Source: Styela clava (lineage: Eukaryota; Chordata; Ascidiacea; Stolidobranchia; Styelidae). From it: DNA of 64,000 nucleotides. The first letter of the stretch is position 1. Every line of letters starts with the position of its first letter. The notes beneath the pieces are model-generated. The model had not been told where the DNA came from and made no database searches. It saw nothing but the letters and a program-made list of their open reading frames with translations. Both the position numbers and the translations under genes were made by a program. The stretch lies in contig NC_135259.1 of NCBI RefSeq assembly GCF_964204865.1, forward strand, positions 6,768,974 through 6,832,973, read 5' to 3'. Positions 23,159 through 64,000 of this stretch are shown here, one piece after another.

Positions 23159-26100
23159 GAATAATAACTACTTTTTTTTTAGCGATGGCGGTGGTGTTTT
23201 GGGGCGTTTTTTTTTACAAAAGATTCAAAAAACATCTTATTCTTACTTTACCTTCTTTAACAATGAAATACTCGTGGCAGTCTGTAGAGTAGCAGGGGAT
23301 ATATATATGGAAACAAGGCCAAAAAGTTTGGAAGGTGGATGAAAACTCATAACATCGTTATCCTTCTCAAATTGAAAAACAAACTTCGATGAACACAACT
23401 AGAATCGCTGCATTATATATATTGTATAGTTGTGGCCATGAAAACAAAATTGCTTTCCTCGTGGTCAAATCGCTTCCAACCTTTCAGTAACTAAAGTGTG
23501 GTGTTTCTCGTAGTATTGACATCACTTTATTTTTGACAATACATATCCTGTATCATTACAATTAAAATTGGTTGATTTGATTATAAGCTTTTTGATCTAT
23601 ATTTGAAATTATGTTGTTGGAAAATCGAACTTAAATCCGGTCGTATGTTTTATCCTCCGACACGTGGATGGCGTGTGTAAGAGCACTCCATTTATAACGA
23701 AAATTAGGGATTCGATACGGTATCGGTGACTTCAATTTAATTATATCCCAATATAAAAGGCGGTAAACGTATGGGATGCTTCGTCTTCAAATATACACTA
23801 TTCTAAAGATATTCAGTGTTACCGACTTTTTCTGTAGAATAGTAAAATATTCCAATCAATTTATACAGTTGTAAATATTTTTGTGGACAAATTTATGTCC
23901 AAGTGAAAAGGAGATGATCATAATTTTTGACACCTTAAAACTGGCCTAAATAATAAAATAGAGCATTCAAAAGCAAGCCAATCATGACTATCTGCTTTGC
24001 AAATAGGAAGAATTAAAGATGAGTGTATGAAATTCTCATATAATCCAAACTTGAACACCCATTCCGACTTATAACTCTGCGATACGATAATATAACATTA
24101 TTTTGAAATTCAAAGCGCCAGTTTCCTTTCTAAAGTAAATCTCTTCCTTCATTGTCACAGCCGTGTCCAAGAACATCCGATCTTTCAGTTTCGAACACAT
24201 GTCTTTGAAAGATCAAAAGATGTTCGAATGGTGTTTTATGAATAGGATATAGATCATTCAAAAGCTTACAAACATATATACTTATATGAATAAAATATCT
24301 ATATGTTGTTATTTTCTTCTTCTATAATATAGGCATTTCAAACCCTAGTCACCCCATCACCATGTGCATAATATCGTAAGCCAGATTTGCCACATTGCAA
24401 AGTTTTCGGCGTTTTCACCCAAAATAAATTTACATGTATCAGTCCTGACTAGTAATAACAATGTGCGCAGAGAAATACTAACAAAACCAAACAACTACAC
24501 GAAATGGAGAACAGATTTGATGGAAAGCTACTTTTTGTATACATTTTATATTTCCAGAATTCGTTAATTAGAATAAGACAGTTTTATATGAAAATATATT
24601 TTTATCACCAGGGAGGTTTGTTATCCAAAAGTTGCCTCTACTGTATAAATTTTAATTTTTCTGAACGCAAGCGAACAATTGGCACTAAGGAATAAATAGT
24701 TTACGGTATTTAAAATTGCGAAAAGTGGCGGATGTGAGGCCGTTATCCCGGCATTTATTCCCATTAAAAGGCACCCAGCCTTATCTAACAAATGTGTAGA
24801 TTTGTTGTAAGATTAGATCTTATCACCAAGAAGTTTTGGCGATTTTTATCAGCTTTTAGTAACAGACTTCTGACACCTAGACAAACGATTTTAGCGTAGA
24901 TACTGACAGGTGGATGTCAACCGGAAAGTCTGAACGGCGTCGACTACAAAGTTATTTTCTGTGACCTAATGTGACGTAACAAAAAACATATTTGCGCCTG
25001 CTGTTAGGTCATGTGGTGGGTTAGATTTAGATCAAGATTATAAAAATTGACTATAACCTTGTAAAAACATAAACCTGAATAAATAAGTAAAAAATGTAAA
25101 TATGAATCAATTTTTAGACAACCGGTATTTTTTTTATTTCTATGTTTTTTTTATTTTTGTGCTAAATCCAGAATTTCCGATGATACACATTGCACATTGT
25201 ACACATAACATTGTATTATTTATTTGGATCTGTTACATCTTAACGCAAGGAGTTTCTTTTTTGTGGGAAAGTAATCTACCGGCACTACCTATTCAAGTTA
25301 TTGCACTCTGGTTATGGAGGTGTACGTGTTGATTGAACCCGAGTCTTTAACACGAGAATCAAGCACAGAGAATTAAGTACAAAATAAACAAATATAATTT
25401 AACTAAAATATTGAAGTGTGTTATAAAAGCGGCCAAGCGCCAAGAGTTGATTTGAGCTTAGAATAATAAATCTAATAGAAAGAATATTCGGTTCGGTTCG
25501 GTGCTAGATGGCGAAAACCGGAACGTATCGTACGTGCTACAGCAATTGAAGCAAGAAAAGCTATTTACAATTTATAAAATAACTTTAATCGACGCTGTTT
25601 GATTCAAATGATGATTTACCCTCCTGTGGAGTTGCATTTGCTATTTGTGACACGCATTAAAATTTTTAAATAATAATAATGATTTAAAATACCAAATATG
25701 TTCTGAAATGACTAATATTCTGCACAAAATATTTTTCATATCTATCAAGCATAGAATGTTTGAACCTCTCTTTCGCATTCAAAAGTCATGCCATGTCCAA
25801 GAGCAGTCATCAAAAGTCAAATGCTACTTACGAGGTCAAAGATCACCTTTCTATTCTTCAATTATCGGTTCACGCAGACGTTTGCGGTCAACAGAGTATA
25901 TTTTAGGATTGGCATCATCTTTTTGAAATCTGCCAAACATGTAACATTTCTAATTCCCATATAGAAAGGTAATTTTAACGTCCATTCACGCTTGTTCGGT
26001 TCTGTCATTACACTACTCGGACAGTTATGATGCGCCCCATCGCCAGCCTTAACGAGTCCCACTTTCGAAAACGCCGCCGCGGTTCGCCGCTTTGCTGGCG

Positions 26101-29100
26101 TAAACAACGCTTTGGGTGCGGTGGGAAAAGTAGAGTCACGTGATATAAGTCAAGATTGGGTCGCGTCGGGCGGCGTCAGAGGACGGTTGTATCGTCTACG
26201 ATTTGGAACAAAACGGAGGCACAAATAAAAACAGGAAAAAATAAAAACAAGAATAATACGATAAACAAGACCCCAATGTCAAGTGCCAAGATCAAGCTCC
26301 TTTCACCCACCAGCAGAGCTAATTAATATTTTGCATGCATAATAAATTTCAACACAACGATAGTTTTATATATTTATTACGATGTATTGTATTCGAATTC
26401 CTGAGCTATTGTCAAATTAAAAAAATTATAGCATATGCTCTTGGCTGGTGTGTTGTCAAACGGTGATCGCTATGACCATATTGATATATATATATTTGGT
26501 TTGACCATATGAATCCAACATTTGCTTTCAAAATATTGTTTGTTGATGAAAAACAAAGGATGAGTTATTTTCATTGATACGTGCTATATTTGTGTGTTTT
26601 GAGCGTTCCTCAATATATTCGTGGAATAGTGCTCTGACCATTTAAATGTTTCAGTTGGACTCAAGTTAGCATAGAGGTTGTGAAACTGGATAATATCGGT
26701 TAAAAACTGAATCGAGCAGATGGACACATAGAAATGGAAAGAATCATCGTAATATATCATGGTGGTAAGAAAACGTTTCATGTTAACTTGTCTGTAGACG
26801 TGATCGTGTAACACACACTTAGAAGAAGTTTATTTCAGCGCCATGTTGTTTTATGCAAACATTGTTATGGAAGACAATAAAGACATATGGAAATCACAAT
26901 CTTATTGAGTTGGTTACCAGTCACTATTTTTTACAATAACAACTGAAAAATCAGTGTCAAATCTATAAAACAATTTTATAATCTACGCGTTATTCAACGG
27001 ACTGAAAACATTTAAGTCTTGATTGTCCAGAAATTTGCAAGTCATTTAGTCTGCTGGGATTTGCGCACATTCGATTCAGAAGGTATAAAAAAAGGTTATA
27101 TTTAAAATGTTCAAATGCTGCAATAATTTCTAGTGCAGTAAATTCTGCGGTTGATATGTGATAGGGGCTTTCACTTTTTGTGGCCAAGTTGAAAAGAATA
27201 CACTAGAGAGCGTGAGAAAATAAGCATTGACCTCCGTTCCCGGATTAACTGAACGCGATATCTTGAGCAAGACAAGTGGATCGTGGTTTGAAACGGCCGT
27301 TCTACCATTCACCCGAAGGAAAAATTGCAAATCAAAATCTCAATTGAAATGATATTTTAATTTGAGCCATTGCCTGATCCGAAATATTATCCAATCAATT
27401 TCGAACCGTTCGGAATTCAACTCTAAAGAATTTCGATTACAACGACCAACGTTTAGACCCCACTCGGAATAAATCTATTTTGTAAGAGAAGAAAAAATTA
27501 GGAAAAACTGATTTTTTGAAATTTTTTGAAAGTGTTTTTATTTCATTCTTTGAAATGTAAAGAAATTTTGCAAGAATACACTGCTTTGTTTTAAAATACA
27601 TCATGCACACAAGTCGTTATAGCCCTTCGCATGCGTCCCCACATTTTTGGAATTTTTTATCAATATGTTTTTCAAATATTTTTTTTTATCTAAGTGCGTT
27701 AATATTTCCTTCAATAGCATTCGAATTACATGTACATTTGGCCTACATTTTTTTATTACCTGAATGTAAAAATTGTGATTTATTACAAAAGTGACAATAT
27801 TTTCACAATTGAAAAAGATTTCTAATTAATGTATTTATGAAATCAATCATCAGTTTTAAATCATTATAGTTTTCAATTTTTAAACTTATGTTCCAATAAA
27901 AAAAATATTTGTTAACAATAATCCTTGGCATATTTTATTTAAGTTCAAGATAAGATTTTAGCTTAAACATTATAGTCGAGAAGACGTTTGTCATATAGTG
28001 TCATATTTCTTTTAACTTGAAGGTAGTTTCATTTTAACTTATCTAATATATCAGATTCAGGCCACTATTAAACTAAAACGTTTACGTGAACTCAGCAAGG
28101 AAGCACTCCTCAAATTAAAGGGTTTTTTGAAATACCATTTATCTGCAAGGTGTGTTCAAGTGCGCTTTATTGTGTGGGATCCTATACTACTATAGTCTAT
28201 TCTCGTACATTCTTGCTTAATGGAAAAGTGAAGTTTCCAGACCTAAGATATCAAAAACACGTGCTTAACTATGGTTGCTTCAAAAGTAAGTACCTGTAGG
28301 GATCACATTCACACGACATGGCATCGTTATTTACCGTAAATAAAGACGAACCTGACCGAACGTCGCGTCAACACCTTCCCACTTTTTAACGCGCAAAAGT
28401 GCGTGAAACCCCATATCTATACAACGTCAAGTTGCCACTCGTCGTAAATAGCCTACTCAATGAAATACAATCGTTTCAATATTCTATAAGGACAAAAGGC
28501 CATCAGTTAAAAACAACATATACGTGGTCCGCATCAGCGAAAATAGACCGAACATAGAAGCACTCAATTTCTCCTCTACTGAGCAAAGAGATATGACAAT
28601 CTATCAAACATGGAAGAAGCTTAAATATTCAATGGTACCGTGTGTTACCTTTGAACAGATATAAATTTATTCGTTGAACATTTTCATAATTATCAGCGAC
28701 AAACAGACTCACTTGCCACCCATAATGCGACCTTATTTTTGTCTTTCATACGAACGCCGCCTGCATTTGTATTCGTCACGCCGTATCGTCTTCGAAAAAG
28801 TCGCGACCCCGAAAGTATTTCTCTAATGCGGTTTTTCATTCAAACACGCTTTTGTCGATTCGGGTCGCGAAAGTAGTATTGTGTCATTTTGCCGCCTTTA
28901 GATTTAGCCAGGAGTTGGACCACCGGATTAGAAATATTGTCATGTACAAGGTTGGGGTTATCAACTCAGGAGTCAGTAGTAATTCATGTGTATATATATA
29001 CAGTATATATATATATATATGTTGAATTTCACATGGGACAGTGAAATCGAATCGGTTCAATTGAATTTAGACTTTTGAGCTACTTTGAACTGACAATGAT

Positions 29101-29560
29101 ATTGACTTTATCTGCCGACTCAAAGTTTAAAAAAATTGACTCTGGCCCCAACTATTGTCTTATGGTTAAAAAAAATATTCGGGTGTTCGATTGGATTTTC
29201 AACCACGGTAATTTTTTGGGTGAAATATAAAGCCGAAATTAGACCATGAGACACATAGGCTATGGTTGCAGAGACCTGTTTCTATACGCGAGAGTCGGGG
29301 AGCATTATCCCGTTACTGATTAATATGACATTACTGAAAAATAAAATTATCCTTCCATTTTCTAAATAGATCTAAATGAGTCTACCATAAAAAAGGTTCG
29401 GAGATAGTAAATTAAAATAAACCATAAGTTCGATGTTGCTAAGGTAAATAGTTAGTCTATAGCTAGACAATTATTAATTTAATTAAAAAGCAAACAAGTT
29501 TATTAAACTTTCAAATCGATTATATTCTGAAATAAACCTTTAAAATTAAAAGACGTCTTG
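23159..29560. other. Long non-coding interval upstream of HEY
   Basis: No exon chain with matching phases was found. Open frames are short and unrelated to known domains. A GC-richer patch at about 26010-26190 includes CACGTG (26137-26142) and could be regulatory. An AT microsatellite lies at about 28990-29022. Confidence 0.4.
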
Positions 29561-29568
29561 AAAATGAA

Positions 29569-29823
29569 TTATCGTTTCAAAGTGAATACCGGAGCCGCCA
29601 AGGCTTGAGGCCCATAGGCTTCAGCCCACCTTGTCTGATGGTAAATCCGGCACTGGTGAAATATCTTAGCTGTAGGCTTCGGAAAAATTGAAAAATAAAA
29701 GCAGTTGCTAGCGAATTTCCCATTAGTGGTGAAAAGAGCGAATTTTCTCTCATAACAACGACATTTAAACTTAGAGAAAGCACTTAGCACGAAAATAGCC
29801 ACCAAAAGAAGAACAGTTTTCAT
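29569..29823 (-). CDS. Possible small secreted protein, unrecognised
   Basis: An 84-codon frame starts with MKTVLLLVAIFVLSAFS, a good signal-peptide core, followed by CRCYER and two more cysteines. The second half contains GGGCTGAAGCCTATGGGCC-like DNA that could be repeat-derived, which weakens the case. There is no introns-and-neighbours support and no known family. Confidence 0.3.
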   Translation of the reverse strand: MKTVLLLVAIFVLSAFSKFKCRCYERKFALFTTNGKFASNCFYFSIFPKPTAKIFHQCRIYHQTRWAEAYGPQALAAPVFTLKR

Positions 29824-30311
29824 AAATCAGAACTAATTTATTGAGGTAGATGTCACAATTAAAAGCAAAAGCAAAAATAAAGCCCGAAAATAATGGATAA
29901 TCATGGGTCACTGTTTGCTGTCGGACTGGAGACGAATGGTAGAAATGTTTTCGTGAAAAGAGTCACAAATATCGGCGTTGTCGTCTGCTATCCCAGGCTG
30001 TCGTATTTTCATTAATTTATTTTATTAAGCTGAAACCATTAATAACTGAGCCCAAAATACGTCTGTGGATCATTTTGATTATTTGTTATTAAAATTATTT
30101 CTGAAAAAATGCCTGTTCGCCAATCGTTACTCGATAGTCGGTGATCGGTTAGAACCGGTACCGATGCTTGACCTCTGCGTTCCTATATATTTGGGCATAA
30201 AACTTGAACCCGACATTTAAGGTTTAAGGCTGTTTTTTTTTTTTGTTAATGTATAACAGATACTATGGATATGTCTTGGCAACGCTAAGATGCTTCGATA
30301 CGAAAGACTCT

Positions 30312-33300
30312 TCACAGAATGTCATCGACTTTGTCGGAGGCTACATCTTCAACCATATTGTTTCTCGTGCAGCAATAACTCGAACGTTTTATAAAGTATT
30401 GGATGAATTCAAACACCGTGATGAAACTCATACCTACCCATAAACCAAGCTGACCCCCTATAGTAAAATACAAAAAAATGAATAAGATCGTTTTCGTATT
30501 ATTAAATTTGATCAAAAAAATTTAGACTCGTAACATTGCTTGGGAAAAGTGGTACAACGTTACATATTTACCCTGTTGATGAACATGCTCTTTTCATTTG
30601 CATTTGTCATTGCTAATCACTAAATAATTTTTCTATGTTGTTACAAATTCGGCGTATAATGTCCGGACCGTTATTCATTCAAGAACAGAGAAGAATGGGT
30701 AAAAAAGGTATTAATGAAGTTGTGGATTCTTTGGTGTAAGACTAGATACAAACTACACTCTGATAAAAATCCGGTTACTCGATAACTCTTGCATACCTAC
30801 GTCACTCAAAAGTCCAGATTCGTCAATTTTTTTAGATTGTGTGTAAATGTTATAACTCATACTGTTGAAATAAACCTCTAAATTCAAGATATTTTTGAAC
30901 ACGTCTTCTTCTTGTATTTCATTGAATGCCTATAACAATACAGAAGTAATCGAATTTCATTTAGTTTATTAAAATATTTGGTAATGTCAATTAGTTGACC
31001 AAATCTTCATCCACCTTCTGAATAAATATATTTGATATGCTAAATACCATGCAACAAAGCAGAAATGAACTACTTGAAATGTCCCTCGTCAATCCATATG
31101 CAATAGCACCAGCAACGTTTCTTTTAAAAAACTTTTCTCATTTTTCAGAAGGTACCTTTGACCACTGAGTGTATAAATATACTTATTATAGTTAATGATG
31201 GTATTCAGGGGGTTCGGCACAGAATTCAGCGAACCCGGTCTGATTTTTTGGATTCAGACATTATACAATCGCAACATCGACTAGTGTTATATTCAGCAGT
31301 TATGTATTTGATTTTTGTAAAGCGTGACTAATGTAGCTTAGGTAATACATATTTATAAAAACCACAAACTTGGATCATAATATCATCTTGGCAAAAGTTA
31401 CTAAAGCTGATGAAACCGAGTGGGAAATTAGGAATATGATAGAATTAATGTTCCAAATAGCCATTGAATGACCTCCAAGTGTTGGGCTACTGTTTGGGCT
31501 ACCGCTTACCATTATGTTTTCCAATGTTGTAATTCCTGGAAAGGTTGCATATGACACTGAAACGTCATATTTCGTGAAGTGGCAAGGCGTAGTACAATTG
31601 CAATCACTTGTGGAATACTAATGATAGAACGTAAATATAAAATAATAAAAAATCAAGTCAAAAAACATATATATGTCGAAGAATCCATTTTGAACATGTA
31701 ATTCCAACTTGAATGTTGCTGTACCAATTTGATCGGCTAATCGCTATATTGAAACAGTATATATATATTTAAATTACATTATGCAAATTTTATAATAAAA
31801 TCCAACATATAGTTTATACATATGTACAGTTTTGTACTGTAAGATATATTGAATATTTCAACCGTAGTACTCACATTTTGTTTCAGTTCAAATAGAAATT
31901 GAGAGGCACATTTTCAAACTTGTCCCAGTGTACATTCATCTGCGTCCTCTTTGGCCCAGTGTTGCGTATGCCATCTGCATCCACATTGGCGAATTAACAA
32001 TTTGGTGAAACATTCTAAAATGATATTATTATCCATTAGTCATATAGTTTACATCATTAATTCATTTTAATATTTCATCTACAAATTTATATTAATAGGT
32101 CATATTGATGCTCACAAACGCATTCATAATATAGTATATTGGAGCGAGGTTTGGGTCATTTTGAACCAATCACTTTTAATAGGAATCGCAATTGTTTTCC
32201 TGACAGTTAAAATAGGCGAACATCGAGTCAATATTTTTATCGGGACCAGTTTGTAGCAAGGTAAATATCTAGGTACTACAAGCAGGAATCAAATTTATCT
32301 ATTGTGAATGGATCAATGTCGATTGTTGGATGAAATTAAAAACTAACGATTCACAGAAAACCACAAATGTATAAAATGCAACCTTGTTCGCAGTTGTGAA
32401 GAGTGTATGTGTTGAAGTATTTCAATTGTTCGTTCGTCGTATTACATCTTCCCCATGGTTCATACATCAAATTGTAATCTGTTCTTTTAACAGCAAGTAA
32501 TCCTTTTATTCCTGTTGGTATCGCTATACCGAATGTTTCCACGTCAGGAATTTCATATCTAGGATGAACCTGTGATTATATGAATCATCAAGACTGGCAT
32601 ACCTTTTGTAAAATTATTCGAATTTCGTGATTGATGAATATGAAAATACAATTGCAATTTTGTTAAAAAATGGTTGTAGATAGCAGGCTCATCTCGGATT
32701 AAACTGAGGTTTTATATTTGAGTAAGAGTTATCTTGAGAACATAAGTAAATAACCTATAGGACACCTGACCTGCATGCATTCACATTAATAGAATGACAC
32801 GTGCATTTTAAACCAAGTTCTGACAATGGAGACGCTTCAAAGTGCCCCCAAACGTAATATTAGCTCGGCCTTAGAGTTGTATGTATACAACGAGTGTAAT
32901 TCACAAAATGAGTTTAAACCAAGTAAATTGAGAATTTAGGATATCATTAAAATCGTTTATGAAACTTCATATCTGGTTTGGCAACAAAAATGGAATCGAA
33001 CACTACCTATAAATTGTGACCAAGATACAGATACTATCGCTAACAATGGTTGTGACTTATCGATCTCGGTCGGTAAGTATGTTGATAGGTATTTGTCTGT
33101 TTGTTTGTTTGTTTGTTTCGTATGTTACGCGATATCTCACGAAAGCGAGGCTGCTCCAAATTTTGCATGTGCGTTCATCAGGTATCGAAACCGCAAATCG
33201 ATCAGTCGGCGGTCTCCGATCGCTTTCTAGTTTAAAATTTCTTAGAGCATAATTAGAACAATTAAATTTAAACCTGAATTTTGATGCCTGCTTCCATAAT

Positions 33301-35464
33301 ACCATGCATAGGTTCTTCAGTATATCGCACTTGCTTGGCGTCGATTTCCATAGAGAAACCATTTCCCGCGCCGGGAACGTTTTGGTCCAATACTCTCCCT
33401 TCCTTATTAAAGGTAAAACATTTACCGAGTGAAGATATTGATTCTGTAAACTCCTCTTGACGACAAGATCTTGATCTATATCTGGTGCATAAACAAATAA
33501 TATCAAATATATCAACAGTGATTATTATTTTCGAATTGGACCTTGTATCATTTCGCCGTTGTTGTCGCTTTTCTCCTCGGCTACTGGATCAAACGATTGA
33601 AAATTTTAAACGTTTCGAAATGATGAAAGAAACCGATATTTTTTTCAAGTTTTTCTGGGATCGCTACTTCACTCTAAATTTTACCTTATTAATTTATGTC
33701 ATGTGAAAACTTTTGTACGATCTTTGGGCTTTGTGTCCATGTATTTAGGTGCTGCTCACTTGGTATCTATGGTATTATTGCTTTATTTGTATATGTGATA
33801 AATCTATCACTTTGGCCTATCACAAGTGTCGTAATTTCATGAATTACACAAATAAGCGGTCTTGTTCTCACGCTGTTTTCTCGAAAATATAGACTGAACA
33901 TCTATAATAGAGTTGCCAAACTGGGATACATGTACTCCCAGGAGTACATTTCGACTTTTAAATGGGGTACTATGAATAAAGTATATTGACATTCTTTCCA
34001 TAACTTCTAATCTGCCCTAAAATATTTCAAACCCGATGTTAATTTTTCGAAGTTGAGAACTTTTCAATTTCGAAGATTTTAGCAAATGTAGGGGGATATT
34101 ATGAGTTACATACCTATAAAAATATTAATTGTGCATCAAAGCAAGTTGAGCATAGCAACCAAAACTATGAAAAAATTTTGGGGGTACATAAACGAATCAA
34201 TATATTGTCCGAGGGGTACCGATGAACAATAACCCGGATCTATATAACAAAAATTTTCAATATTAAGTCACATACTTGCAACGCTTTATGTCTGGTCCAA
34301 TAAAGAATCCATATTTGTTGATATGAGCTGTTATATTGAAATTGTCACCAAGCTCGTCAAATTTTTCCTCGTTTTCTTTTGTTATATTTCTTGATATTTG
34401 GGTAAGGGATGTCAAACGATTCAACGCATGAAACTGTCTCAAATCAAGAACTGATGACCTAGGCTTAAAGCATCTGGGTGAAGAAAATAGATAACAAAAT
34501 TAAAAACTAAAATTTTCTTAATCTAAGCTATTATTAGGCGTTTAGTCTAAACTTGTTAACGCTCGTACTCGTTAGCTGACGATAGAGACATCAAATTATT
34601 CGTCTGTTATAGACATTGCGATCTGTGATTTTAATTTGAATAAAATATATATGAATATTTTTTATTGCACTATTGAAACTAAATTGCAATCTTTTCATGT
34701 GAAGATTTGTGAAACAATAGATTGTATAAATTCAAAATTTTCCCATCAGAGGTATGTGATTTCTGTAAATTTAATGTTGAAACTACTAGCTAATATTTTA
34801 TGATTATATAATTGTTCAACAGTTTTGGAAATATCTGAGCATATAGACATATTCAAAAACAGGAATAACTTTCAACTTTTCAAAAGAGATTGCATGGCGG
34901 GATATGCTAGTAATTTTCGTAACTTATTGTTTAATTGTATCCTTGTTCTTGATACCCGGCTTTATCTAAATATCGATGCAAGATACAAAAATTCAAAGCC
35001 TTTGTTCAATTTATTCACCACCTATCTGTATGAAGTGAGGGAAATTGAACGGTTCATTGCATACAAAAATGACAAAATAAAGGGCTAATATCAAAAATGG
35101 AGAATTTCAAGATACATATACAATAATTGATTGTATTTATATGATTATGCATGTATAATTTCTGATTGGTGATTATTAATGCAGTAACTGTGCCAATCAA
35201 CTGTGTTTTATATATTAATGAATATTTTGAAAAAATTCAATTTTAAATAATATATTATAGTTGAAACAACATAGTATATATATATTACTCTAAAACCATA
35301 CCTGCAATTAATACCAGCCATGTTATACGGACGATCATTTTCTCACCCGTGCAAAAATATGATATGCCGTGACATGATGTTGATGTCACAAATTCTTTGT
35401 CCGTCTCAGAGATTAAATTTGCAGTTTGCTGTTGTCGAGCATTCTTGTTTTTTGTATCAGGCAT
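30312..35464 (-). pseudogene. DEG/ENaC (degenerin/ASIC-like) sodium channel with in-frame TGA
   Basis: Eight exons were traced: 35302-35464, 34276-34473, 33274-33481, 32355-32569, 31875-31974, 31510-31617, 30797-30929 and 30312-30457. Hallmarks appear in order: the N-terminal HG gating motif (CHGISYF), the start of TM1, GKCFTFN (family YGxCYTFN), NGFSMEID, EPWGRC, the cysteine-rich CNCTTPC, then GGQLGLWVGMS, with a G-x-S selectivity filter leading TM2, and a C-terminal tail. Such proteins form trimeric sodium channels gated by acid, peptides or touch. All joins from the second traced exon onward keep frame. However, codon TGA at 31914-31916 falls between two conserved cysteines (C-x7-C spacing kept), removing everything after it, including TM2. 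The exon linking TM1 to the second traced exon was not found (required phase 1 in, 2 out). It is a pseudogene, a null allele or a base-call error. Confidence 0.85.
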
Positions 35465-35981
35465 CTTAATATCGAATTTTGGCGTTATCGAACTTTCATT
35501 TGAAAAAGGATAGATTTCTGTAGTCGTACTCGGTTAGATCCAGTGGACTGGACTTTGAAATGTTGGTTGTCAATGCTTCTAGTCACTGAAACATTCGTAG
35601 TGCCAAAATTGTTCATTCCTGATCATATTAGTTTGGACATTTACAAATTTTGCATCTTATCATTTAGTTATCGTTGGTGACTTTCCTCTGCTATAAATTC
35701 AAATCACACACAGAAAAGTGTGCGTGTGGCCATACTCAAATTCTCAAGAAGAGATGTTCAACAACAACATCCTTTCGTCAAAATTTAGCCATGAACATAA
35801 CCAATGTTATTGGTCATTACCTTCTTTAAATATGTCTTCGTTATAAGTTCCTCTTCGTTATAGTTCTCTTGTGTGCTTGTTTCTGGAACGTCCTACCCCA
35901 ACCCAGGAACTAAGACAACTGGTAAAGCCATTAGGCTTTTGAAACATGGTTAACCCAAGAATTTTACAGGAATTTCCCCAA

Positions 35982-36477
35982 TCATCGTTGTTTATTTATG
36001 ACACCATATTCATAATTTATGTTTCCTTGTAGCTGTGATAATTTGTTTTTATTGTCACAAATGATCAATTGGTCGTAGGATTTCCACGATATAGTTTGTT
36101 GGAAGTTGTGATCAATTATTGAAGTCTGCGCTGTAATATGAATTGGTACCTTCATGATTTGTTCAAATCTAATTTTCACATTCCAATCCAAGACTTTGAA
36201 GTCAGTCTGGAATTGAAAGATGTTTTTTGCAATATTTGAAAATTGGAATGATAAAGAAACCGTTGATTTGATTTGGTAAACGAATTGGCTACCACATATT
36301 TCCATATAAATTGCAACTTTGCGAATCGAGACGATTGATTGTATTTTACCAAGATAAATGTAATAATGTGTCATATAATGGTAAAAAACGGAAATAATAC
36401 CATATTTTTCCTGTCTTCTTTTTATAGTTTGCAAATGATCAATAGGTGTGACAGCCAATCGGTTCGGATCAATATAA
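35982..36477 (-). CDS. Unrecognised open exon, beta-rich composition
   Basis: After an acceptor-like ..cactcag the frame is open for about 164 codons to a stop. The composition alternates hydrophobic and polar residues (for example VSLSFQFS, VKIRFEQIM, VPIHITAQ), suggesting beta strands. No ATG lies at the start, so an upstream exon is required unless translation starts at an internal Met (MTHYYIY). A downstream-type donor is absent, so this would be a last exon. A candidate upstream exon ending at about 37096 (frame CELYGNWISVSWPF) has the wrong phase for a direct join. No family is recognised. Confidence 0.4.
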
Positions 36478-36539
36478 CTGAGTGTTCAATTTTTTATCAC
36501 CTTTTGTCGCAAGGTAATAAAAGGTATTGATAAGGAACA

Positions 36540-38870
36540 CAGGAGTAAAGAACAATTGAATCTGTTTACTCGTCTCAGCACAGGGAAAGAAGTTGAACAT
36601 ATGCTTGTGTTGCTCAAAACTATTCTTGTCTATTGAGCGTTTCCAATGCAGTCTACAATGCTCTTCGTGGTCTTTATTGTCTTACATTGAAATAACAACA
36701 AAAAAGGTATATCTAACCATGGAATCGGCTTAAAAACTGATACTGTACAGTTTATATTGGAAAGCAAATTGCTGATATTAAAATACATTTGTTTCTCAGG
36801 ATATCTCTACAATATAAAATCAAAATATAAATATTTGCAATAGCATGTGTATCTTTCCGAATTCATTTGATTTCGTATATATTTGTACACGGCCTCATTA
36901 TTTCTTTACCAACGGATAGGTTGTAAACATTTTAAAATTATTCTCAGGGTAAACATCGATTCGTTTTTCATTTTCATTGACGTTTTCTTGATTCTACTAT
37001 TGATTGAATTAGCCGAATTGTTCCCTTTTTTATGGTATTTTGATTGAGTTGCAGTAACCAAAAACCGACTACAAAAAGATTTATGGTAGGCTTACCTATA
37101 CTGTTTAACAGTACATTAATAGAACGAGCACCATCAAACGGCCAAGAAACACTTATCCAATTGCCGTATAGTTCACAGTTTAAATTTCACTACAGTCGTT
37201 GTGAGATCAGAAGACCATGAATTTCGGATCGGGTATTTATTGAAAACAGCAATTCGACACTTTAAATAGCAAAAGAATCAGAAACAACTAATAAAATTCG
37301 CAGGCGAATTTACCATGCGGTAAGGTAGGCTATGGTATAGTGACCGCAAGTTTCAGCAAATTCGATATAGATATTTGAACCATTAATCACTTTTGACAGT
37401 AAATTGTAAGTCGCTTTCAAATTTATAATAAAACATGATTCAAAATTTTTTTAAACTTTTATCAATTAAACATTTTTTAAAGGGTTACTAACAGATTTCA
37501 AATTCAAGTCCTTTCATTAAGAAATGATAATTTACCCTGTTATCGCCACTTCCCAATTTCGACACAAGTCTTTAGCACCGCCATATGACGTCATTTCACA
37601 AAACTTTAAAGTGAAAAACGAATCTCCTAATGACCACAAAAATGTTTGAAATGAATAAAAGTGGGGGTGTATGGGTGGTATGCTAAATTTTCTCATGGAC
37701 ATATATACTTATAAAACACTTTACAAGGCAATCCGTAGCTATTTCGTGCGCAATGAAAATTATTTATATAAGTGGTGATAATAGGATAATCGTAGTTCCT
37801 ATTATCGTCATAATGACATTTCAGCCAAATCGCGATGTATCGCTATAGAAATTCTTTTTGTGGGTCCCTGCTGTTGACATTTTTTCTTCCATCGGTAGCT
37901 GATGTTCCGGGACTATATATATAAAATGTTTCGTAAAGTATTGAAAACTTCAGATGGATTGCAATAAAAAAATGGCGATATATAATAGGATAACTCACTT
38001 GGCCCAAATCTTTACCGATCAAAAACTTAGAAAAAGAAATTTAAATTGGAAAATTCACCGTAATAATGCTTTTATTTTTTGAACAAAAGTAAGAAAAATA
38101 AGAACCATGCCCACTCCTCACCTTTTCCGACTACGAACGGGTATTATATATGACCCTAGGCTTTCTGGTACCATGGCGTTTTATTGCAAACTTGAGTTTC
38201 GTAAGGTCTTTTTCAATTTACCTTCAATATATAATCAATACGTATTTTCTCTACGATCAAAATTTTGTATTTCATGCGATATATAAAAATTGCGCTGTAA
38301 CACCGTAATACATTCTACAAAACCAGTAGATATCTTTTATGGATACGTAGATGATGAGTTTTTTTTTTTTACAATAATTATAAGTCAATTCATTGGTTTA
38401 GTTTCTAAATTCTACCAGTAATGAAATCCTATTATGAAACAACTTCATAATCACACTTTTTATTTACAGTTATGAAACGAACGAATCAAATTAAATAGAG
38501 CATAATCATGTGGAAAAAGATACCATACGCTGGAATATTCGAGCTAGTAACATAATTTAGTCTTTAAAGCAAAATTGGATTCACTTCTCCTGCAATCGAA
38601 GACACCCTTCAAATAAATAAACCGCTGTTATAATGATTGTGTTGGTAGATGGGAAGATTTAACGAGTCTATTTAAAAAAATAACTTAATTATACATCATT
38701 TAAAGCCATTTGAATGTTACAGGAATGTTTTCCAAACCTCCCCAGGTATACACAACCATGTTTTGGGAGAAATCAAAGTCAAAAGCCTTACAATGGAAGA
38801 ACATGAAAAATATATAGTAAAAGGTAACCGGTACAAAAAATAAATATGAAAAATAAAAACATTACATAGC
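36540..38870. other. Non-coding interval
   Basis: AT-rich sequence with no exon chain or RNA gene that could be supported. Confidence 0.4.
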
Positions 38871-38874
38871 GTAC

Positions 38875-39060
38875 AGCAGTCATAGAAAATATTTAGCATT
38901 TCAGAAAAATTAATTCACAAAGTAAATAGCAGCCATAGGAAATATTTTGCATTACAGAAAAATAGCTCACATAGTAAATAGCAATCATAAAAAATAGTTT
39001 GCATTACGAAAAAAATAGTTCATATAGTAAGCAGCAGTCATAGAAAAAACATTTGCATTG
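38875..39060. repeat. Tandem repeat, about 53-bp unit, 3.5 copies
   Basis: Units starting AGCAGTCATAGAAAA or a close variant begin at about 38875, 38928, 38980 and 39033. Each is followed by TTTGCATT.C.GAAAAA and a T-rich ..CA.A.AGTAA block. Confidence 0.75.
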
Positions 39061-40150: not shown

Positions 40151-41560
40151 TGTATGTACATATACAAAAACTTTTTGTATGCTGTAATAAGTTTTCTGGT
40201 GGTTTTTGCATGTTTGAGCTTGATAAATGACAAACACTGATCAATGTGTTTGCACAAAAAAGTGTTTGCTATGTATTTCTCTGTTTACCTATTCTCCATA
40301 TCCAACAAACCGTGCTGTCGGACGACGTAAAAAGGCATGGCACAATGAAATAATGAGTACCGGTAAAGCGTTGGAAGTTTCTGCTCGTTGTATAATATGA
40401 TCATTGTACCGGAATACATTGTTTGCATTTGATACTGGGTTTTTTGAAGCATGCTACTGCTAGTGCTACTCAACATGATCCTAATCCGGAACGTTGAAAT
40501 GTTCAGTTCCACTCGTGACTGTTATCGTTGTTTGTATTGGATTACATGATTAGCTGCTTAGAAGGGTGATTCCGTGAGGCGTGGTTAAAAAATATTGTAT
40601 ATTGTGCAGAAGAAAGAACTCTTTTGCACTGATTCACAACCGAAAGAAATTGAGGCGTCATAATTAGAGCGATGTAGCAGCGCGCACAATGGATGTCAAT
40701 TTGTTTTTTTGGTTAACTTTTGGCTAAAATTTATACGCACCATCTTGGATTACGGTACTCGGTTCATTTTACTTGTTCAACTTGCAAGAATCTGTTCAAG
40801 AAGGCTAATTTTCAATTTTAGCTTACAGGTTTTGGTAAACACTTCTGAGTAGCCTATAAGCGTTTTGATAGTATTGTACATTTTTCGCACCTGCCTTTTC
40901 AGACTTGTTTCCTGTGAGTTCATAAAACCCACACTGATATTACAGTAATAGGTCAAGACAATGAGAAAACTTGGTGAGCTATGGCTATGAGCTAAACCTA
41001 TGGCTTAGATTTTAAGCAATTATTACCGGGATACGGTCTTAATTTCTGTCGTTTTGTATAAAGAATATTGGGAACCCCTAATCTTAGATAAAAAATTTCC
41101 ATTCCAATTAATTTTTCGATGCTTTAGATATTGGAACCGTGGGTTTCTGCTCGCAGGTTTGATAACTATCCTCGATTCCTCGCTGCTTTCTTTCGATTTG
41201 TTCTCCCGTAATATTATCTTTGACTTTTTCTCCTAGTTTGCTATACTGTTGTTTTTATATTTCACTGATATATACTGAAACGTTTCTCAACATGCCAATG
41301 AAGCCTATTCTTTGGCCATGAATTTTATTTCTGCGAAACATGTGGCGTTACGCACCCTCTATATCTTTCCAGTTACATTTTTTTGAATGCTTGAGATTTA
41401 GTTGCTGCGTTTGCGAAATAATTCGGCATCTACAACGTTTTGATATACAATGATTAAACAAAATCAATACAATGATAAACTTCTGGCTTCCATTTTTATT
41501 ACACAACAGTGGACAATATATCGCTATTTCATGTTTCCACAGCCTAATAAGCTCTAATAT
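40151..41560. other. Non-coding interval upstream of kelch gene
   Basis: No exon is recognised. The stretch just before 41565 is open in the kelch frame from 41472, but the residues encoded there do not match the family, so it is treated as 5' untranslated sequence. Confidence 0.4.
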
Positions 41561-41564
41561 CAAG

Positions 41565-43235
41565 ATGGAGCATTCCAACAAAAATAGTGATGATTGTGAA
41601 AAAATTGAAAAGATCTCAAAAGTTGAAGAATTGGAAGAATTGGGATTTCCGTCTGATTTTATTATCAAAGTCGAAGAATTTTCTTTTCCTGTACATCGAG
41701 TAATCATAGCTGCTGCATCTAACTATTTTCGTCTTATTCTGTCTAGTCAGATGAAGGAATCTAAAGATGGTTGTGTTGATATGGAGGAAGTTGACCCACA
41801 TGCAATCAAGAAATGCATTGCTTTTATGTACCATTCAGAAATGCCAATTGCTCTTACTGAAATAGAGGACGTTATTCACGCTTCCAAACTAATAAACTTG
41901 GATAGACTTGCTGAAAAATGTTTCTATCAATTAAACCAAGAGTTATCTCCAGATACTTGCATTGTGTCATTGAAGTTAGCCAAGTTGTATAATCGAAACC
42001 AGTATGAGTTACAAAATTATATTTTAAAGAACTTCAGAGCTATAGTTGCCTCTGATATGTTTCCATATATAGATCATGATGATCTAGTAGATTATATCGA
42101 ATTTTTCAGTGCAGGTGAAGATACCGAAAGAATTAAGTGGGAAGCAATTACAAAGTGGGTAAAATTTCAATCGGATCGAAAAGACAATTTCCCCAGCCTT
42201 TTTCAGCTCATGAACCTGGATCTGCTAAGTCCACAATTTCTTCAAGAAAGCGTACGAACCGATCCACTTGTGAACGACTCCGTGGACTGTATGAATATTA
42301 TGATGGAAAGTTTACTTCCACATACAAAATTGCGACAAAACATCATGAATAACACAGCAACAACCCCAAAAAATATTCATATAGCATGCTTGAACCTACG
42401 TGAGGGTTCAATTGATGCCTTCAATGTGCGGTCAAAGGGATGGTGTCGCATTTCTGGTTCTCCTATAACAGGACAATACAAGTTTGGCAGTATTTGTAGT
42501 TGTCTATATATTCTGGGTTATAATGGTGATTTCTTCATATTTGACAATAAAAGAGAAACATGGATTCGCAAACCAAGTGGAAGTCCTCATTACGAACACT
42601 TTTTTGTAATTGAGTTTCAAGGCAAACTATTTGTGCTTGTAAAGCATCACACTTTATGCTATGATCCCATTCAAGAAATGTGGGAAGCTGAACGTCTGCC
42701 TGGTTGTCGGCTACGGTTCTTCTGTGCCGCCTCTTCTGAAGATTTTATTTATTCAGTCGGAGGTGCAATTGGGACTTTTTGCCAGTGGGATCAAGCAAGA
42801 AGATATGACCCGCTACGTAAGAGATGGGCAAAAATTGCTTCCATGAATAAAGAACGAAATGGATCAGCAGCGGCGTATGCCTGTGAAAAGTTGTATGTAC
42901 TGGGCGGAGAATGGGACAAGAAATACCTGAGTACAGTAGAATGCTACAACCCGGATACTAACACTTGGACTAGTATTACAAATATGTGTGTAACGAGGGA
43001 TGATCCTACAACTTGCGTCTCCGATGATAAGATATATGTCGTCGGAGGAGCTAGGGATGAGGATGGCAATCCCGAACAAGATAATTCTATAGAATTATAT
43101 GACGTAATTTCAGGCAAATGGGCTATTATCTCAAAAGGCAGAATATACCCCGGACTCGTGCAATCATGCATTTATCCGAAGGATAGGCTCTCATCTGGGA
43201 ATTCGGTAGAATCAGGGGGATGTAAGACGCAATAA
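41565..43235 (+). CDS. BTB-BACK-kelch protein (KLHL family), single exon
   Basis: The frame encodes 556 residues from the ATG at 41565, which is preferred over an upstream in-frame ATG at 41472 because the family begins with a short polar leader before BTB. The BTB domain (about 31-128) contains DFIIKVEEFSFPVHRVIIAA and SQMKES. A BACK domain follows (CYQLNQ..; LKLAKLYN; ILKNF). Kelch repeats occupy about 270-540: the early blades are degenerate (ILGYNGDFFIF), the later ones carry the usual doublets (SVGG, VLGG, VVGG) with W spacing (RKRWAKIASM, TNTWTSITNM). KLHL proteins usually act as substrate adaptors of Cullin-3 ubiquitin ligases. The substrate cannot be read from the sequence. The lack of introns in an intron-rich neighbourhood suggests either a retrocopy or an ancestrally intronless member; the frame is intact. 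Confidence 0.93.
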   Translation: MEHSNKNSDDCEKIEKISKVEELEELGFPSDFIIKVEEFSFPVHRVIIAAASNYFRLILSSQMKESKDGCVDMEEVDPHAIKKCIAFMYHSEMPIALTEIEDVIHASKLINLDRLAEKCFYQLNQELSPDTCIVSLKLAKLYNRNQYELQNYILKNFRAIVASDMFPYIDHDDLVDYIEFFSAGEDTERIKWEAITKWVKFQSDRKDNFPSLFQLMNLDLLSPQFLQESVRTDPLVNDSVDCMNIMMESLLPHTKLRQNIMNNTATTPKNIHIACLNLREGSIDAFNVRSKGWCRISGSPITGQYKFGSICSCLYILGYNGDFFIFDNKRETWIRKPSGSPHYEHFFVIEFQGKLFVLVKHHTLCYDPIQEMWEAERLPGCRLRFFCAASSEDFIYSVGGAIGTFCQWDQARRYDPLRKRWAKIASMNKERNGSAAAYACEKLYVLGGEWDKKYLSTVECYNPDTNTWTSITNMCVTRDDPTTCVSDDKIYVVGGARDEDGNPEQDNSIELYDVISGKWAIISKGRIYPGLVQSCIYPKDRLSSGNSVESGGCKTQ

Positions 43236-52343: not shown

Positions 52344-55223
52344 TCATCTCCAAAGCCAACTACCTCTACTTCCACCGTTTGGACAACTACCTTGGGACCT
52401 AAAAATAAAAAAGTTAATATCAATCAAGATCAAAATTGATTTTATGATAATATGAGAGAAGCTTTCCAGTGTTGCCAGTGTGGCAATTCGATTTTGTAAA
52501 AGAGACGAAAAATGTATATGGATGCAAACCTACCCGTATGTGAGTGGAAATTTAACATTTGGGTGAAAAGCATGTTTGCAGGATTTCAGCGTTTCCCAGG
52601 CAGTCATTGGTTTCCTGTTAACTCCACTGACGTTTTTGCACTTGCTCCTATTTTTCATCAGATCTGCATTATAAGTCTTAGCATTCTTAGCCGTGCATCT
52701 AGCCATATTTTGATCGCATTCACATAATTCCCTTCCAGCACCTATATATATATATTATACATACAATTAACACTGTAATTTCAGAGTGTAAAATTAGGTC
52801 CATATGAACTCTGCATTTGATACCGCGGTAGGCTTGCTGCGTACATTAATTCCACCGAAACTTAAATGTATTCTGGCTACGACATTTGCTTAGCAAAATC
52901 ATTTTCTGGTACCCCCGAAGTATGTGAACCAAGATGGCGGACACCGGAACGTAGGATGTTTACCAGGTTAGGGTTAGGCCCTACTTTCAGATACAAATAC
53001 TACGGGAGTCATTTGGCTAGTCCCAGAACTCGTAATAGAACTAAAATAAGGAAAACTAGAATAAAATTATGGCCTAACCCTAACCTGGTACACATACTAC
53101 GTTCTGCCATCTTGGTTTACATACTTCGAGAGCGCCCATTTGCTTAAGCTACTGAAATCTTTATTTCAACCAAGCATGTCTGTATTTCATGTACCATAAA
53201 TATATACCATCCCAATATTAAATCAGTTCGGACCATCTGTATCAGAAGATGATAACATTTAAAAACCTGTAAATAATCATAATATAATTCATGAAATATC
53301 TTACTTGGACCAGAGTCCGTACATTTTGTATATTTCTCCTTCTTACAACAGGAGACACTATAAGGGACAGTGTACGTATCGCAACCATATTTAAGATTGT
53401 ATTTCTTCATCACGCGTTCGTAGCAGGAATCATGTCCTTTGCAACATCTGGTAAAGTAATAACAAAATATAATCAGGCGATGCAAACAGCAGTGACTTTA
53501 GGCCTACGTTGAAAACTTAATGCTTCATTGAAAATTATTGTTCTGGTGTAGGCCTACGCCCAAATACTCACAGGTCGGTGGCATCCAAATAGTTTCCGAA
53601 ATAGTAGCCTGCACCGCAGTAACATGCATATCCATTGAATCTTCTGTAAGCCCACAATGCTTGTAGTAGGAGTGGTCCCGTTTTTCCCTATTAAAAATAA
53701 GATAGCGTACAATGAAAAATGATATAGTGAGTGTGAGGTTGGCCAAATGAGTCTTAAAAGTCTCTGTTTTCAAGCCAAATGAACACCTATGTGCAGAAGT
53801 ATTACGTAACGACAATGGAGCGATGCTCAAATATATGGACATGAAGGCTAAGACGAAGTTGTGCGGGTATGCAGTCTGTCACAGTAGACTACCGTTACCG
53901 CAGTCTTCACGTCTTCGCCCGAATACTATAACGCGAACGCGGAACCGCCATAAAGTACGCAATTTTGATGACGTCATCGCACACGAAAATAGGAAACCTA
54001 TAGAGCCCACAAAAAATTTTGAAATAAATAAAAGTAACAAGAAACAGCTTTCTAGCAAAATTTACAATCTTTAACCACTGAATATTCCAACGCAATTGGT
54101 CCCGGTAGTTATGAGAAAAGAAATTTTTTCACATCAAGAAGACAATAATGACTAACAACAATAATGCTCGATTTAATACGAAAGATTATACAAAAGTATA
54201 TAACTCGATCTTATATATAGTGCGCATTATTGATATACATATAAAAATAAATTCGAAAAATCCATAGACTATTTTCAAGACATAAGCTAAACATTTGAAT
54301 AACGTATGCAAATCAAGTTACTGTAATAACATACTCCATAACAGGCAAGCTGATACGCGAAATTCACAGTCGTCCATCTCCTCGCGTCTCCTGATTTAAA
54401 TATTCCAGGAAGCGATTTCAAGAAACTGATGTCCAATAAGACATCATCCGTATTGAATCCGTGATCTTCACTTATTCTGCGAATTTCTGAGACGACGTCA
54501 TCGTGCAAAACGTCAAAATCTGGATCTTTATTTTCTTCCTGAAACACGGTAACAATATATGTATTTGAATATATCAGTATATATGATTATATTATAGCTT
54601 TCAATGCAATGAACGAAATTCGTTTTCATCAACGTGGGTACGCACAGGGCCGACTTTAAATATTGAGCGGCCCTTCGCAAAACGGATCGCGACGCGCCTT
54701 ATCTGATTTGAGACAATAGCTGAAAATCAAGGAAAGTTTAACTTAATTTCTCCTTTAATCAAAGCATATTAATAAGTTTTATTTTATTTTTTATTATGTT
54801 ATTACGCGACCTTAATTCAGTTCAATATTGCTTTCTGAAATTTAATTTAAAAATAGACATAAAAAAAACTTGAAGCGGACCTAGTCTCTCGTTGGTGATT
54901 CACGAATATGAAACGGGCAATTTCTGAGGTAAATATTCCTTAGAAATTAGCTTCTGGTATAAGAGTGGAAACAACTGCGAACTGCTAACCATACGAATAG
55001 ACGCTAATGCAAAAAAGACATTCACCACCAAACACGATTCGGTAAATTGTAAATTAAATAGACTTCGAAAATAAACTCCAATATGAAACATAATGGCTTG
55101 AAAGTGGTTTGCACTTACCATAATGAAACTCAAATCTCTCAGAAACTCTTCTACTTCACGTTCTTGATTAGCGTACACGAAGGAAACCATAGAGGATAGA
55201 ATTAAGATCGTTTTACTAAACAT
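52344..55223 (-). CDS. Secreted phospholipase A2, paralog B
   Basis: Six exons join in phase: 55119-55223, 54335-54538, 53572-53687, 53305-53447, 52534-52741 and 52344-52398, giving 276 residues. The signal peptide MFSKTILILSSMVSFVYA is followed by the same kind of N-terminal region as in paralog A (shared SEDHGFN / EDHGFN and FLxSLPGIFKSGDA-like blocks). The core reads ACYCGAG (124-130), CCKGHDSCY with His147 and Asp148, and CECD with Asp199. The last exon reads GSQGSCPNGGSRGSW. Exons 3 to 6 have exactly the same lengths as in paralog A (116, 143, 208, 55), and exons 1 and 2 differ by one codon each in opposite directions. The gene faces paralog A tail to tail, 1.3 kb apart. The loop Gly of YGCYC is Ala here; all catalytic residues remain. 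It should be a secreted calcium-dependent lipase. Confidence 0.93.
52916..53128. mobile_element. Palindromic foldback element with telomere-like motifs
   Basis: In the intron between exons 4 and 5 of paralog B. The arms are CGAAGTATGTGAACCAAGAT and its near-perfect inverse at 53109-53128, with ACCAGGTTAGGGTTAGGCC and its inverse further in. The element could fold into one long hairpin. TTAGGGTTAGGC is part of the arm, not a telomere array. No target duplication is clear. Confidence 0.7.
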
Positions 55224-59829: not shown

Positions 59830-62800
59830 TTACTTTATGTCTTGCTCAAAAAGTTGCAAATCCACTTTGACGACGACCTCTCCCGATTCAACTTCATGGA
59901 GAAGTAATCGTTTGGTTAGAGGTCCTTTGCTTTCTGCAGTGTCTCGTTTGATATCCGACACTTTGATTTCAGTTCGTCCGAGAAAATCTAGATAAACATT
60001 AATAATTTTTTTTCATAAAACTTCATAACCATAAAAGTTTAGCATGACTATGTCTGCGATGAGTCTCAACTATGCTAGTATCAATGATATAAAATACGCT
60101 CTGATTGAGGCATGGTTGCTTTGCTGCCTCAATGTTACTTTTTTTCTATAGTGGTATTCGAAATAATTGCCTAAATAAGATGGTAATCTTCAATGAAAAA
60201 ATCAGTGGGCATATTCAAAATGAAATGTCTACTGAACAACTGAAATCATACCATCAGGAGAGAACATGTCTTTCTGGAAAACAGAAATGCACAAAACATC
60301 TTCTTTGATATCCTTGACAAAAAACTGCATACTTGTCCCCCACTTTGGATTTTGTGTATCCTGGAATTTAATATATACTTTTGATCAAAATAAAATATTA
60401 CCATCAAGGGGTAGTGAGAATATTCCTACACTGATTACTTGAATAATCAAAAATTCTATCGTGGAATTAATTTCAATTTAAGTATTTTAAACCGATGAAA
60501 TATCTTGCAAAAATTTGGTTTAATGGAAAATAAAAAAATTAATCTCAAAATCGCAAATTTTAGGAAAAAAACGTATTTAGGTAAAAATAGTAACTAAAAT
60601 TATCAAAAAATTAATCTCAGAATCGCGAATTTAAAGAAAAAATCATGATTAGGTAAAAATAGTAACTAAAATTACCAAAAAATTAATTTCATAATCGCGA
60701 ATTTTAGAAAAAAATTGTGTTTAGGTAAAATATATTAACTAAAATTAACTGTAATCTGGAAAGGCCTAACTGTCAAAAATTGTTTAAAAAAAAATTGCAT
60801 TAGAATACTTTTTTCTGTGGGCGTCTAGGCCCTCAGGTACAGAACAAAAAATGACCTTATTAATGTATCGGAACATTAAAACATAATCTAATTAAGTTCA
60901 GATGATAAACAACACAATACCTGAATAGTTTTAGTCAAATGACTTTGCACTCCCATTGTTACTTCACAATATGGATCATTTCTCCCATTGGTGTTTTTAA
61001 CAAGGTTGCAACCTTCAACAATGTTAACCATAAGTCTTCCAATGCCGGCAGTCCTTTGTGATCGAGCTATCAAAACAGAAAATTAAAATACGATCTTCGA
61101 GCGTGTATTGCAAATTAAAAATATATTATCAGGGATGGTGAACCACTAGGCTGCCATGTCCCGATTAGTGTAAAAACCCACATTGTGTTTTTCGGTGATA
61201 CCACCCCCACATGTCCCGATTAATGAAAAACCCACAATGTGTTTTCGGTGACCCCACCACCACATATCCCGACTGATAAAAAAAAACACTATGTTTTTAC
61301 AATGAACCCACGCCCACATGTCACACATTAATGCAACAAAACATACTAACATTTTAAAGATGAAAATTGATAATAAAACGGCTTTAATTCAATCCAACAA
61401 TAATTAAATGATTATAGTAGCCGGTAAGCAGCTATTGGCAATAACACTGTTACAAAAAAGGTTCGTTATCCCTGTAAAAGGCCATTATCTACACTACATG
61501 AACAATTACCATGATAAGCTTTCTCTCGTTTCTTTTTCTCAGTGTCGATATAAAGTTGTGAAGCATTTTTAATTTTGTTTGTCCAAGCGGTTCGTTCATT
61601 AACATTCTCAGCACGAAGAGCATAAACTCTATCGACATGGGACAAATGAAAAACCGCTAATTCTTCATCATTTGTACTGCTCCCTCCCGCTGGACTAGGA
61701 TCGGTCGGAAGTCGAATGAGAACCTCATTTAAAAATATTGGCTGAAAAATAGAAAGTATTTTCAGAAATATTACCTTATACCAGTGTTTCTTAATATCAA
61801 GTTTTAATGTGGTTACATCTGTTGCTTTATGTGCCAGGTTTGTGCAAAATGATAGAAAAATGAATGCATCAGGGTTAAAAATTTAAATGCAGCACAGTCT
61901 TCTAATTTAACCTAATGTAGTCAAGTGGATTTTACCAAGTGTAGGCTCTTGCTTTCACTCAATTTAACATCAAATTTATAGGTCGCTAAATAAAGATAGC
62001 ACCTACTACTACTTTGGTGGAGGATAACTTAGTATTATAAACAATACAAAAAAAAATAAGAGCATGATACAAAAACGATTTAAAATATACAAATATAAAT
62101 AAAATGCAGGTACCAGGTCAATTATTGAAGAAAAAATCAATCAGCTACTTGAAAAAATGGTTTGATCATTTTTGGGATAATAGATTTTGCAAAGATATGG
62201 AAAAACATATCTCGACGCACCAATTGCTTAGGATTTTCATAAACCTTGTAATATTATAAACAAATAATCACCAGTAGGTAGTTTATATGACAGCATCACT
62301 AACACAACTCAATAAAATTTCTTATTTTAACAACATAATTCTAAAAAAATTTAAAATGTACCTGTTTATACAGACGAAATTGAAGATTATTTTTGGAACT
62401 GAATATAAAATCATTGACTGGCATATTGAGGGGTCTGGTGGCAGTTGTAAGAAGTAAAAAATCGTTGAATAGGAATCCGACTAAATCTTTGTTAGATTTA
62501 TGTTTATACAACGTTCCACAGTGCAAAAATCGACGCTGTCCAAGGCAATTGGTTGCTGAGTTGAAGACAAGTTTCTGAAATGAGTTTTATGGTTAGAAAA
62601 AGACATAAATATAAATGTTTTAAATGCCTAACTATATCGCATTGGAGTTTTTGTGTCAATACGACACACACTAACATTGCATAGAATGGCATTTGGTAAT
62701 CAATTTGAAAGAAAAGAATTTTGCTTGATAGATAATTTGTATAGCAGGCCAATTGTTGCTGAATGTTACCATTTCAAGCCTGCTATAATAATAGAGTATT

Positions 62801-63317
62801 CCTAATGCTTGACTAGATGAGACAAAACTATATCAGGTTTCAACAGATGGGAAAATGGGTTGAATGTCCAAAATTTAGCTATATGTCATCATTAATGAGC
62901 ATCAACAAGCGTATACAAATGAAAATATTTGAAACCTCATTAATAAAAGCACCAACTGCCAGGACCCAAGAATCTTATTTTTTTCTCTGGTGGGAAAATT
63001 TTCATTGTTTTTTCTACCAGTAATAATCAAGAACTATCGAAGGACACCTTTTTGGTATAGCCTTACATTTGGCATAGAATCATTATTTCCAACAATTCAA
63101 AAACAAACAAAAAACCTAAAAATATTCGGCACAACCTATACCAACTCACATCATTCAATCCTTCCAGTTGAACATGGGTTTGAATCCATTCCAATCTGTC
63201 AGCATTTTCTTTTTCTCTAACTCCTTCGTTCACTTGTGAGCAGATTTCTTCTGCTCTTTCTAATGCAAGTTTCAAATGATTGTGATCAACATGACCTTCT
63301 GGAGTATGTTTTAGAAT
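59830..63317 (-). CDS. ITSN: Intersectin, 3' end (end of DH, PH, C2), partial
   Basis: Six exons join in phase: 63150-63317, 62362-62574, 61510-61741, 60921-61066, 60252-60360 and 59830-59987 (TAA stop), giving 308 complete codons before the stop plus split codons. The first matches the end of the intersectin DH domain ([20 protein letters not shown]). The second and third carry the PH domain ([41 protein letters not shown]). The last three carry the C2 domain ([65 protein letters not shown]). Intersectin is an endocytic scaffold; its DH-PH module is a Cdc42 exchange factor. EH and SH3 domains and the start of DH must lie right of the window. Similarity to the vertebrate long isoform is high throughout. 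Confidence 0.95.
60534..60752. repeat. Tandem repeat, about 71-bp unit, 3 copies
   Basis: In an intersectin intron. Units starting AAAAAATTAATCTCA.AATCGC begin at about 60534, 60605 and 60677. Each runs through AGGTAAAAATAGTAACTAAAATTA or a close variant. Confidence 0.8.
61155..61335. repeat. Tandem repeat, about 54-bp unit, 3.3 copies
   Basis: In the intersectin intron just before the first C2 exon. Units begin CATGTCCCGATTA (61155 and 61209), CATATCCCGACTG (61262) and CATGTCACACATTA (61316), each followed by a CACA.TGTGTTTT..GGTGA..CCAC block. Confidence 0.75.
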
Positions 63318-64000
63318 CTGAAAAGCAACATTTTCCTCATAAATATCACCGGAACTGTTATACGGCAGTAGCATATTGCCTCAACTGGCTCTCACCCAAA
63401 AAGATGTAGATAAATGCAACAAGATAAATATTCACGTCACACAAAGAAAGATTTAGTTTCACAGCTTGTCTCTCCTCTCATTTTTGTTGTGAAATGGGAA
63501 TTTTTTTTTTTTTTGGGCTGATATAAACGCATAATAGAGGCCCATGGACAGTTAAAACTTAGGCCATATAATCGGCCACCTAAAATAAGCGCTCATAGGC
63601 GGACTGAAGACTGGGGACTTTCCGCGAAGAACCCTATCACAACAAGAACATAGAGGGTGACAATTAACAAGTAGCAAAAAGGGAAATAAAAAAACTTCAA
63701 TTTTACGAAGGAATTTGGATAAGATGAAAAACTTGCAACTTTCAATTTTTATTAAACAAGACGGTTCATCTATGTTGTTGGAATTTAAACGTTTAGAATA
63801 TTTTTAGATATTTTTCGCTCAACTCAAGCAATTGAAACTTTGCGATGACTTATTTTCATCTTACAAATTCAAAAATATCACACAAATCAATAAATGTTAA
63901 CTCTGCACTAGAATATTGAATATTCAGGATGAGTTTACTTAAACCAGCTCAATACAAATTTTCATAAAAAAGGGCTGTAAAGTCACCACAATGATTCAAA
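63318..64000. other. Intersectin intron, right edge of window
   Basis: No further DH exon was recognised up to the edge. A T run lies at about 63501-63514. The next upstream exon is expected outside the window. Confidence 0.4.

Follow-up and report, generated by a model that had tools for sequence, protein, structure and literature searches.

A probably disabled ASIC-type sodium channel gene in Styela clava, with an in-frame TGA and an exon that could not be found

We analysed a 64,000-nucleotide stretch of the Styela clava genome (contig NC_135259.1, positions 6,768,974 to 6,832,973; hereafter the window). By its sequence, the locus at 35464-30312 on the minus strand is an ASIC-type DEG/ENaC sodium channel gene, with eight exons recognisable. 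Its sixth exon carries an in-frame TGA, and we failed to find its second exon. We infer that the animal itself carries both lesions, that the locus would yield no functional product, and that the loss is recent. The locus is thus probably a recently disabled gene copy, either a pseudogene or a null allele, in which the second exon is gone or unrecognisable and the sixth is interrupted; this verdict is based on one assembled sequence. The gene model is as follows, with a slash marking exon boundaries in splice sites.

35302-35464, minus strand: E1, with the ATG, the HG motif (STSCHGISYF) and the first half of TM1 (ITWLVLIA)
34474-35301, minus strand: expected place of E2, with no trace of it in profile and motif searches
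34276-34473, minus strand: E3, the variable region from TM1 to the first conserved cysteine pair (...GFFIGPDIKRC)
33274-33481, minus strand: E4, YRSRSC...GKCFTFN...EAGIKIQ, with a weak donor CAG/GTTTAA
32383-32569, minus strand: E5, VHPRYEIPD...EPWGRCN...NCEQ, with a weak donor AAG/GTTGCA
31875-32014, minus strand: E6, CFTKLLIRQCGCR...ECTLGQV, stop, KCASQFLFELKQN, with donor AAT/GTGAGT
31914-31916, minus strand: in-frame TGA of E6, in the frame ...LLIRQCGCRWHTQHWAKEDADECTLGQV, stop, KCASQFLFELKQN
31510-31617, minus strand: E7, YSTSDCNCTTPC...LENIM
30797-30929, minus strand: E8, AFNEIQEEDVFKNILNLEVYF...LLSDV
30312-30457, minus strand: E9, GGQLGLWVGMS (TM2 and selectivity filter) to the terminal TGA

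Splice signals comprise AG before E3-E9 and GT after E1-E8, and an AATAAA lies at 30026, beyond the terminal TGA of E9. Judged by eye, and in agreement with the open frames obtained when exons are joined, phases match at all junctions except one: E1 ends in phase 1 (donor CAG/GTATGG) and E3 starts in phase 2, so that direct splicing of E1 to E3 shifts the frame. We place a missing exon, E2, between them. Single exons varied in how well they matched known channels: in tblastn with ASIC5, E1 matched with an E-value of 8e-4 and E3 weakly (0.43), the end of E3 being in phase with E4, and E7 alone reached only 0.08 against solved structures. The E4 and E5 donors are weak, with 40 and 32 percent of minus-strand GT sites scoring at least as high on a generic matrix; this may be either normal for the species or a sign of further decay.

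Family membership was assessed with the joined protein, in which X stood for the TGA and for E2. It matched the Pfam ASC family (PF00858) at 6.6e-66, with 223.6 bits against a cut-off of 23.6 and a best stretch covering profile positions 127-455 of 455. The best relatives among solved structures were ASIC5 (4.7e-51), ASIC2 (1.7e-48) and ASIC1 (3.9e-47). Fifteen solved ASIC sequences scored 159.1 to 177.4 bits and a sixteenth, a 78-residue ASIC1 fragment, 25.9 bits; the 13 non-ASIC solved sequences (ENaC, FaNaC, pickpocket, and one named only as an amiloride-sensitive Na+ channel) scored 44.8 to 83.2 bits. Scores to solved structures therefore suggest that the nearest relatives of the protein are the ASICs, with ENaC, FaNaC and pickpocket more distant.

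The locus shares with ASIC5 and ASIC1/ASIC2 the HG motif in the N-terminus, the extracellular cysteine pattern of E3-E7, GGQxGL, and the GxS filter before TM2. Identity to these channels is 26.9 to 28.5 percent over 371 to 383 aligned residues. Where a cysteine column was counted if at least two of three ASICs (ASIC1, ASIC2, ASIC5) had C, 13 of the 14 conserved extracellular columns were present, and the absent one falls in E2. Unlike these relatives, the locus has a TGA in E6 and no exon that we could find for the second half of TM1 and FPAVTxC; neither a complete TM1 nor this motif emerged from profile and motif searches. Proton gating in ASICs involves a histidine after TM1, and the corresponding region falls within the missing E2. 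No second ASIC-like gene was found in the window by tblastn, the remaining matches being the gene's own exons and chance-level matches (E at least 0.7). One survey reports ASIC genes from deuterostomes, protostomes and xenacoelomorphs but from nowhere else (PMC9949801), so that the ASIC-type match by itself points to a bilaterian animal.

The initial annotation had placed a nonsense codon inside a conserved exon, and this holds: the minus strand has TGA at 31916-31914, and the frame it interrupts is the one giving CGCR and C-x7-C. The cysteine spacing described there is also present, with a C-x7-C enclosing the stop and C-N-C-T-T-P-C one exon further on. The exon is in place but longer than the 31875-31974 given there, running from 32014 to 31875 (140 nt) between acceptor TTTTAG/AATG and donor AAT/GTGAGT, and it does fit both neighbours in frame, entering in phase 1 and leaving in phase 0 (by eye; frames open). 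In a frameshift-tolerant scan the ASIC profile of E6 scored 45.3, against a mean of 21.7 for 30 shuffles (sd 2.9, maximum 29.3), with the alignment ending at 31893, past the TGA. A six-frame profile search recovered E6 only as far as the stop; in tblastn, ASIC5 aligned in frame across the TGA, though weakly (E 6.6).

As first proposed, termination at this codon would remove TM2 and the filter, the end of E6 and all of E7-E9 being lost and GGQLGLWVGMS lying in the last exon. Three splice junctions lie downstream of the TGA, and a stop upstream of exon junctions is expected to trigger nonsense-mediated decay. A transcript of the locus would thus terminate before TM2 and be expected to decay, and joining E1 straight to E3 would additionally break the frame. 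CpG decay is not favoured as the origin of the stop, CpG observed/expected being 1.0 over the window.

In the ASIC alignment, E2 corresponds to 42 residues containing the second half of TM1 and FPAVTxC. We found no FP-x-[VI]-T motif in minus-strand 35301-34474. Per-exon profiles were built from three ASICs, with cuts guided by an alignment that included this gene, and were run on the six-frame window. With hmmsearch, the true exon ranked first for seven of the eight other exons (E1, E4-E9); the best E2 match in the window reached 8.4 bits and lay outside the E1-E3 interval, and with a lengthened E2 profile the best match, far from the interval, had 9.3 bits. The frameshift-tolerant scan gave a similar picture, with E2 at 18.3 in the interval against 19.6 +/- 3.0 for 30 shuffles, and seven of the eight other exons scoring 45 to 90 where null means were 20 to 26. 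The profiles have limits: E3 was also missed (22.2, with the null at 22.9 +/- 2.8, and absent from the top hmmsearch matches), and hmmsearch gave two of the recovered exons no more than 15.0 and 15.7 bits, so a diverged E2 could escape them. The FPAVTxC motif makes an overlooked diverged exon less likely, and the searches together suggest that E2 is probably gone or decayed.

Between E1 and E3, two stretches weakly resembling E2, ALYFVIFVCNEPFNFPHFIQI and KLLAYPAMQSLL, were set aside: no profile score there rises above shuffle level, and GT sites near them (by eye) give the wrong phase. Pfam found no match in frames of the interval, but likewise missed E1 and E3, so its silence carries no weight. 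Repeats of at least 25 nt in 28000-37000 gave no sign of an insertion replacing E2; all were imperfect, with 69 to 83 percent identity, and inverted arms were 70 to 76 percent complementary.

The gene had been described as otherwise well preserved, which is correct in that, apart from the TGA, the 422 counted codons hold no stop or frameshift, but not with respect to E2, a probable second lesion that the initial annotation missed. These clean codons point to a recent loss. Without constraint, the probability of so clean a record falls to 5 percent at about 1.6 to 6 percent divergence, a rough bound given the assumed mutation models and ratios, and exons partly chosen for being open. The same cleanliness counts against a disabled copy, being what a live gene would show. 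The locus nevertheless likely carries two lesions, each disabling, which makes recent disablement or a null allele a better account than an isolated base-call error or readthrough. Among the explanations offered by the initial annotation, recent loss or a null allele thus remains the best reading, while a lone base-call error and readthrough become less likely given the missing E2.

The strongest alternative, which we consider unlikely but well ahead of those that follow, is an assembly or sequencing fault. The gene would be intact in the animal, with E2 dropped by the assembler and the TGA a consensus error, or with a single bad haplotype represented in the contig. That one assembled copy was seen, and that its eight exons are otherwise open, fits this explanation. 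Against it, the TGA and E2 lesions are at least about 2.6 kb apart, the window contains no N, and a base-call error alone leaves the missing exon unexplained. Errors in long-read consensus are mostly indels, and the 422 codons contain no frameshift.

A live gene could also avoid the stop by splicing, with E2 too diverged to recognise or replaced, through one candidate site.

31917-31919, minus strand: possible alternative donor CAA/GTTTGA, last exon base 31920, in frame

Use of this donor would skip 45 nt (15 codon positions, the TGA included) while keeping the phase of the normal E6 donor. On a generic matrix it scores -4.11, similar to the donors of E4 (-4.58) and E5 (-3.75) that homology requires, but the normal E6 donor 45 nt downstream scores 4.11. 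The skipped piece also contains a cysteine conserved in ASIC1, ASIC2 and ASIC5 (column 353), which is presumably disulfide-paired, so that skipping would lose the disulfide; E2 is still unaccounted for. We regard such splicing as improbable, and its extension as more improbable again: a shortened ASIC-type gene, transcribed, skipping the stop through the weak donor and having no ordinary TM1/FPAVT exon, that would supply a non-canonical or dominant-negative subunit.

Readthrough of the TGA, or its decoding as selenocysteine, is highly improbable: the frame past it is open and ASIC-like, but its column holds K in ASIC1 and ASIC2 and F in ASIC5, not Cys, the base after it is A where C gives a favourable readthrough context, nothing in the window reached an Rfam gathering score, and none of the three matches up to E 10 in 26000-36000 was a SECIS element. 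A changed genetic code was rejected, Trp in the exons being encoded by TGG, so that the code looks standard.

A recently disabled copy would have parallels in the DEG/ENaC family. SCNN1D (delta-ENaC) is reported to have been lost in five rodent lineages (PMC8662647) and to have become a pseudogene in cetaceans through premature stops, indels and splice-site damage (PMC12227717), so lineage-specific loss of a DEG/ENaC subunit gene is known there, as proposed here. The cases differ in that SCNN1D is a vertebrate ENaC for which many species were examined, whereas ours is a single assembly; and cetacean SCNN1D is described as having multiple indels and splice-site mutations (PMC12227717), whereas our locus has one stop and one missing exon. 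Titles and abstract openings from a literature search by topic, not species, contained no description of such a locus. If real, the loss would add one more DEG/ENaC gene copy to those known to have been lost, help to count ASIC-type genes in the lineage, and caution annotators against bridging the TGA. Recent gene death is an ordinary event and opens no wider question.

Elsewhere in the window, a tRNA scan found none. Short tandem arrays of 2.4 to 3.5 copies lie at 60533-60747, 61155-61319 and 38875-39059, with units of 72, 53-54 and 53 bases. Possible exons of a RhoGEF/PH-domain protein occupy 61469-63380 on the minus strand, with a PH_13 match at 61469-61882 (3.6e-20) and a weak RhoGEF end at 63066-63380 (2e-4, below the Pfam cut-off). 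An open frame at 53147-53497 on the minus strand weakly matches phospholipase A2 (CCKGHDSCYERVM), with an E-value of 0.008 that falls short of the Pfam cut-off. At 41454-43232 on the plus strand lies what is apparently a single-exon Kelch-like gene, an open frame of 593 aa containing BTB, BACK and Kelch domains.
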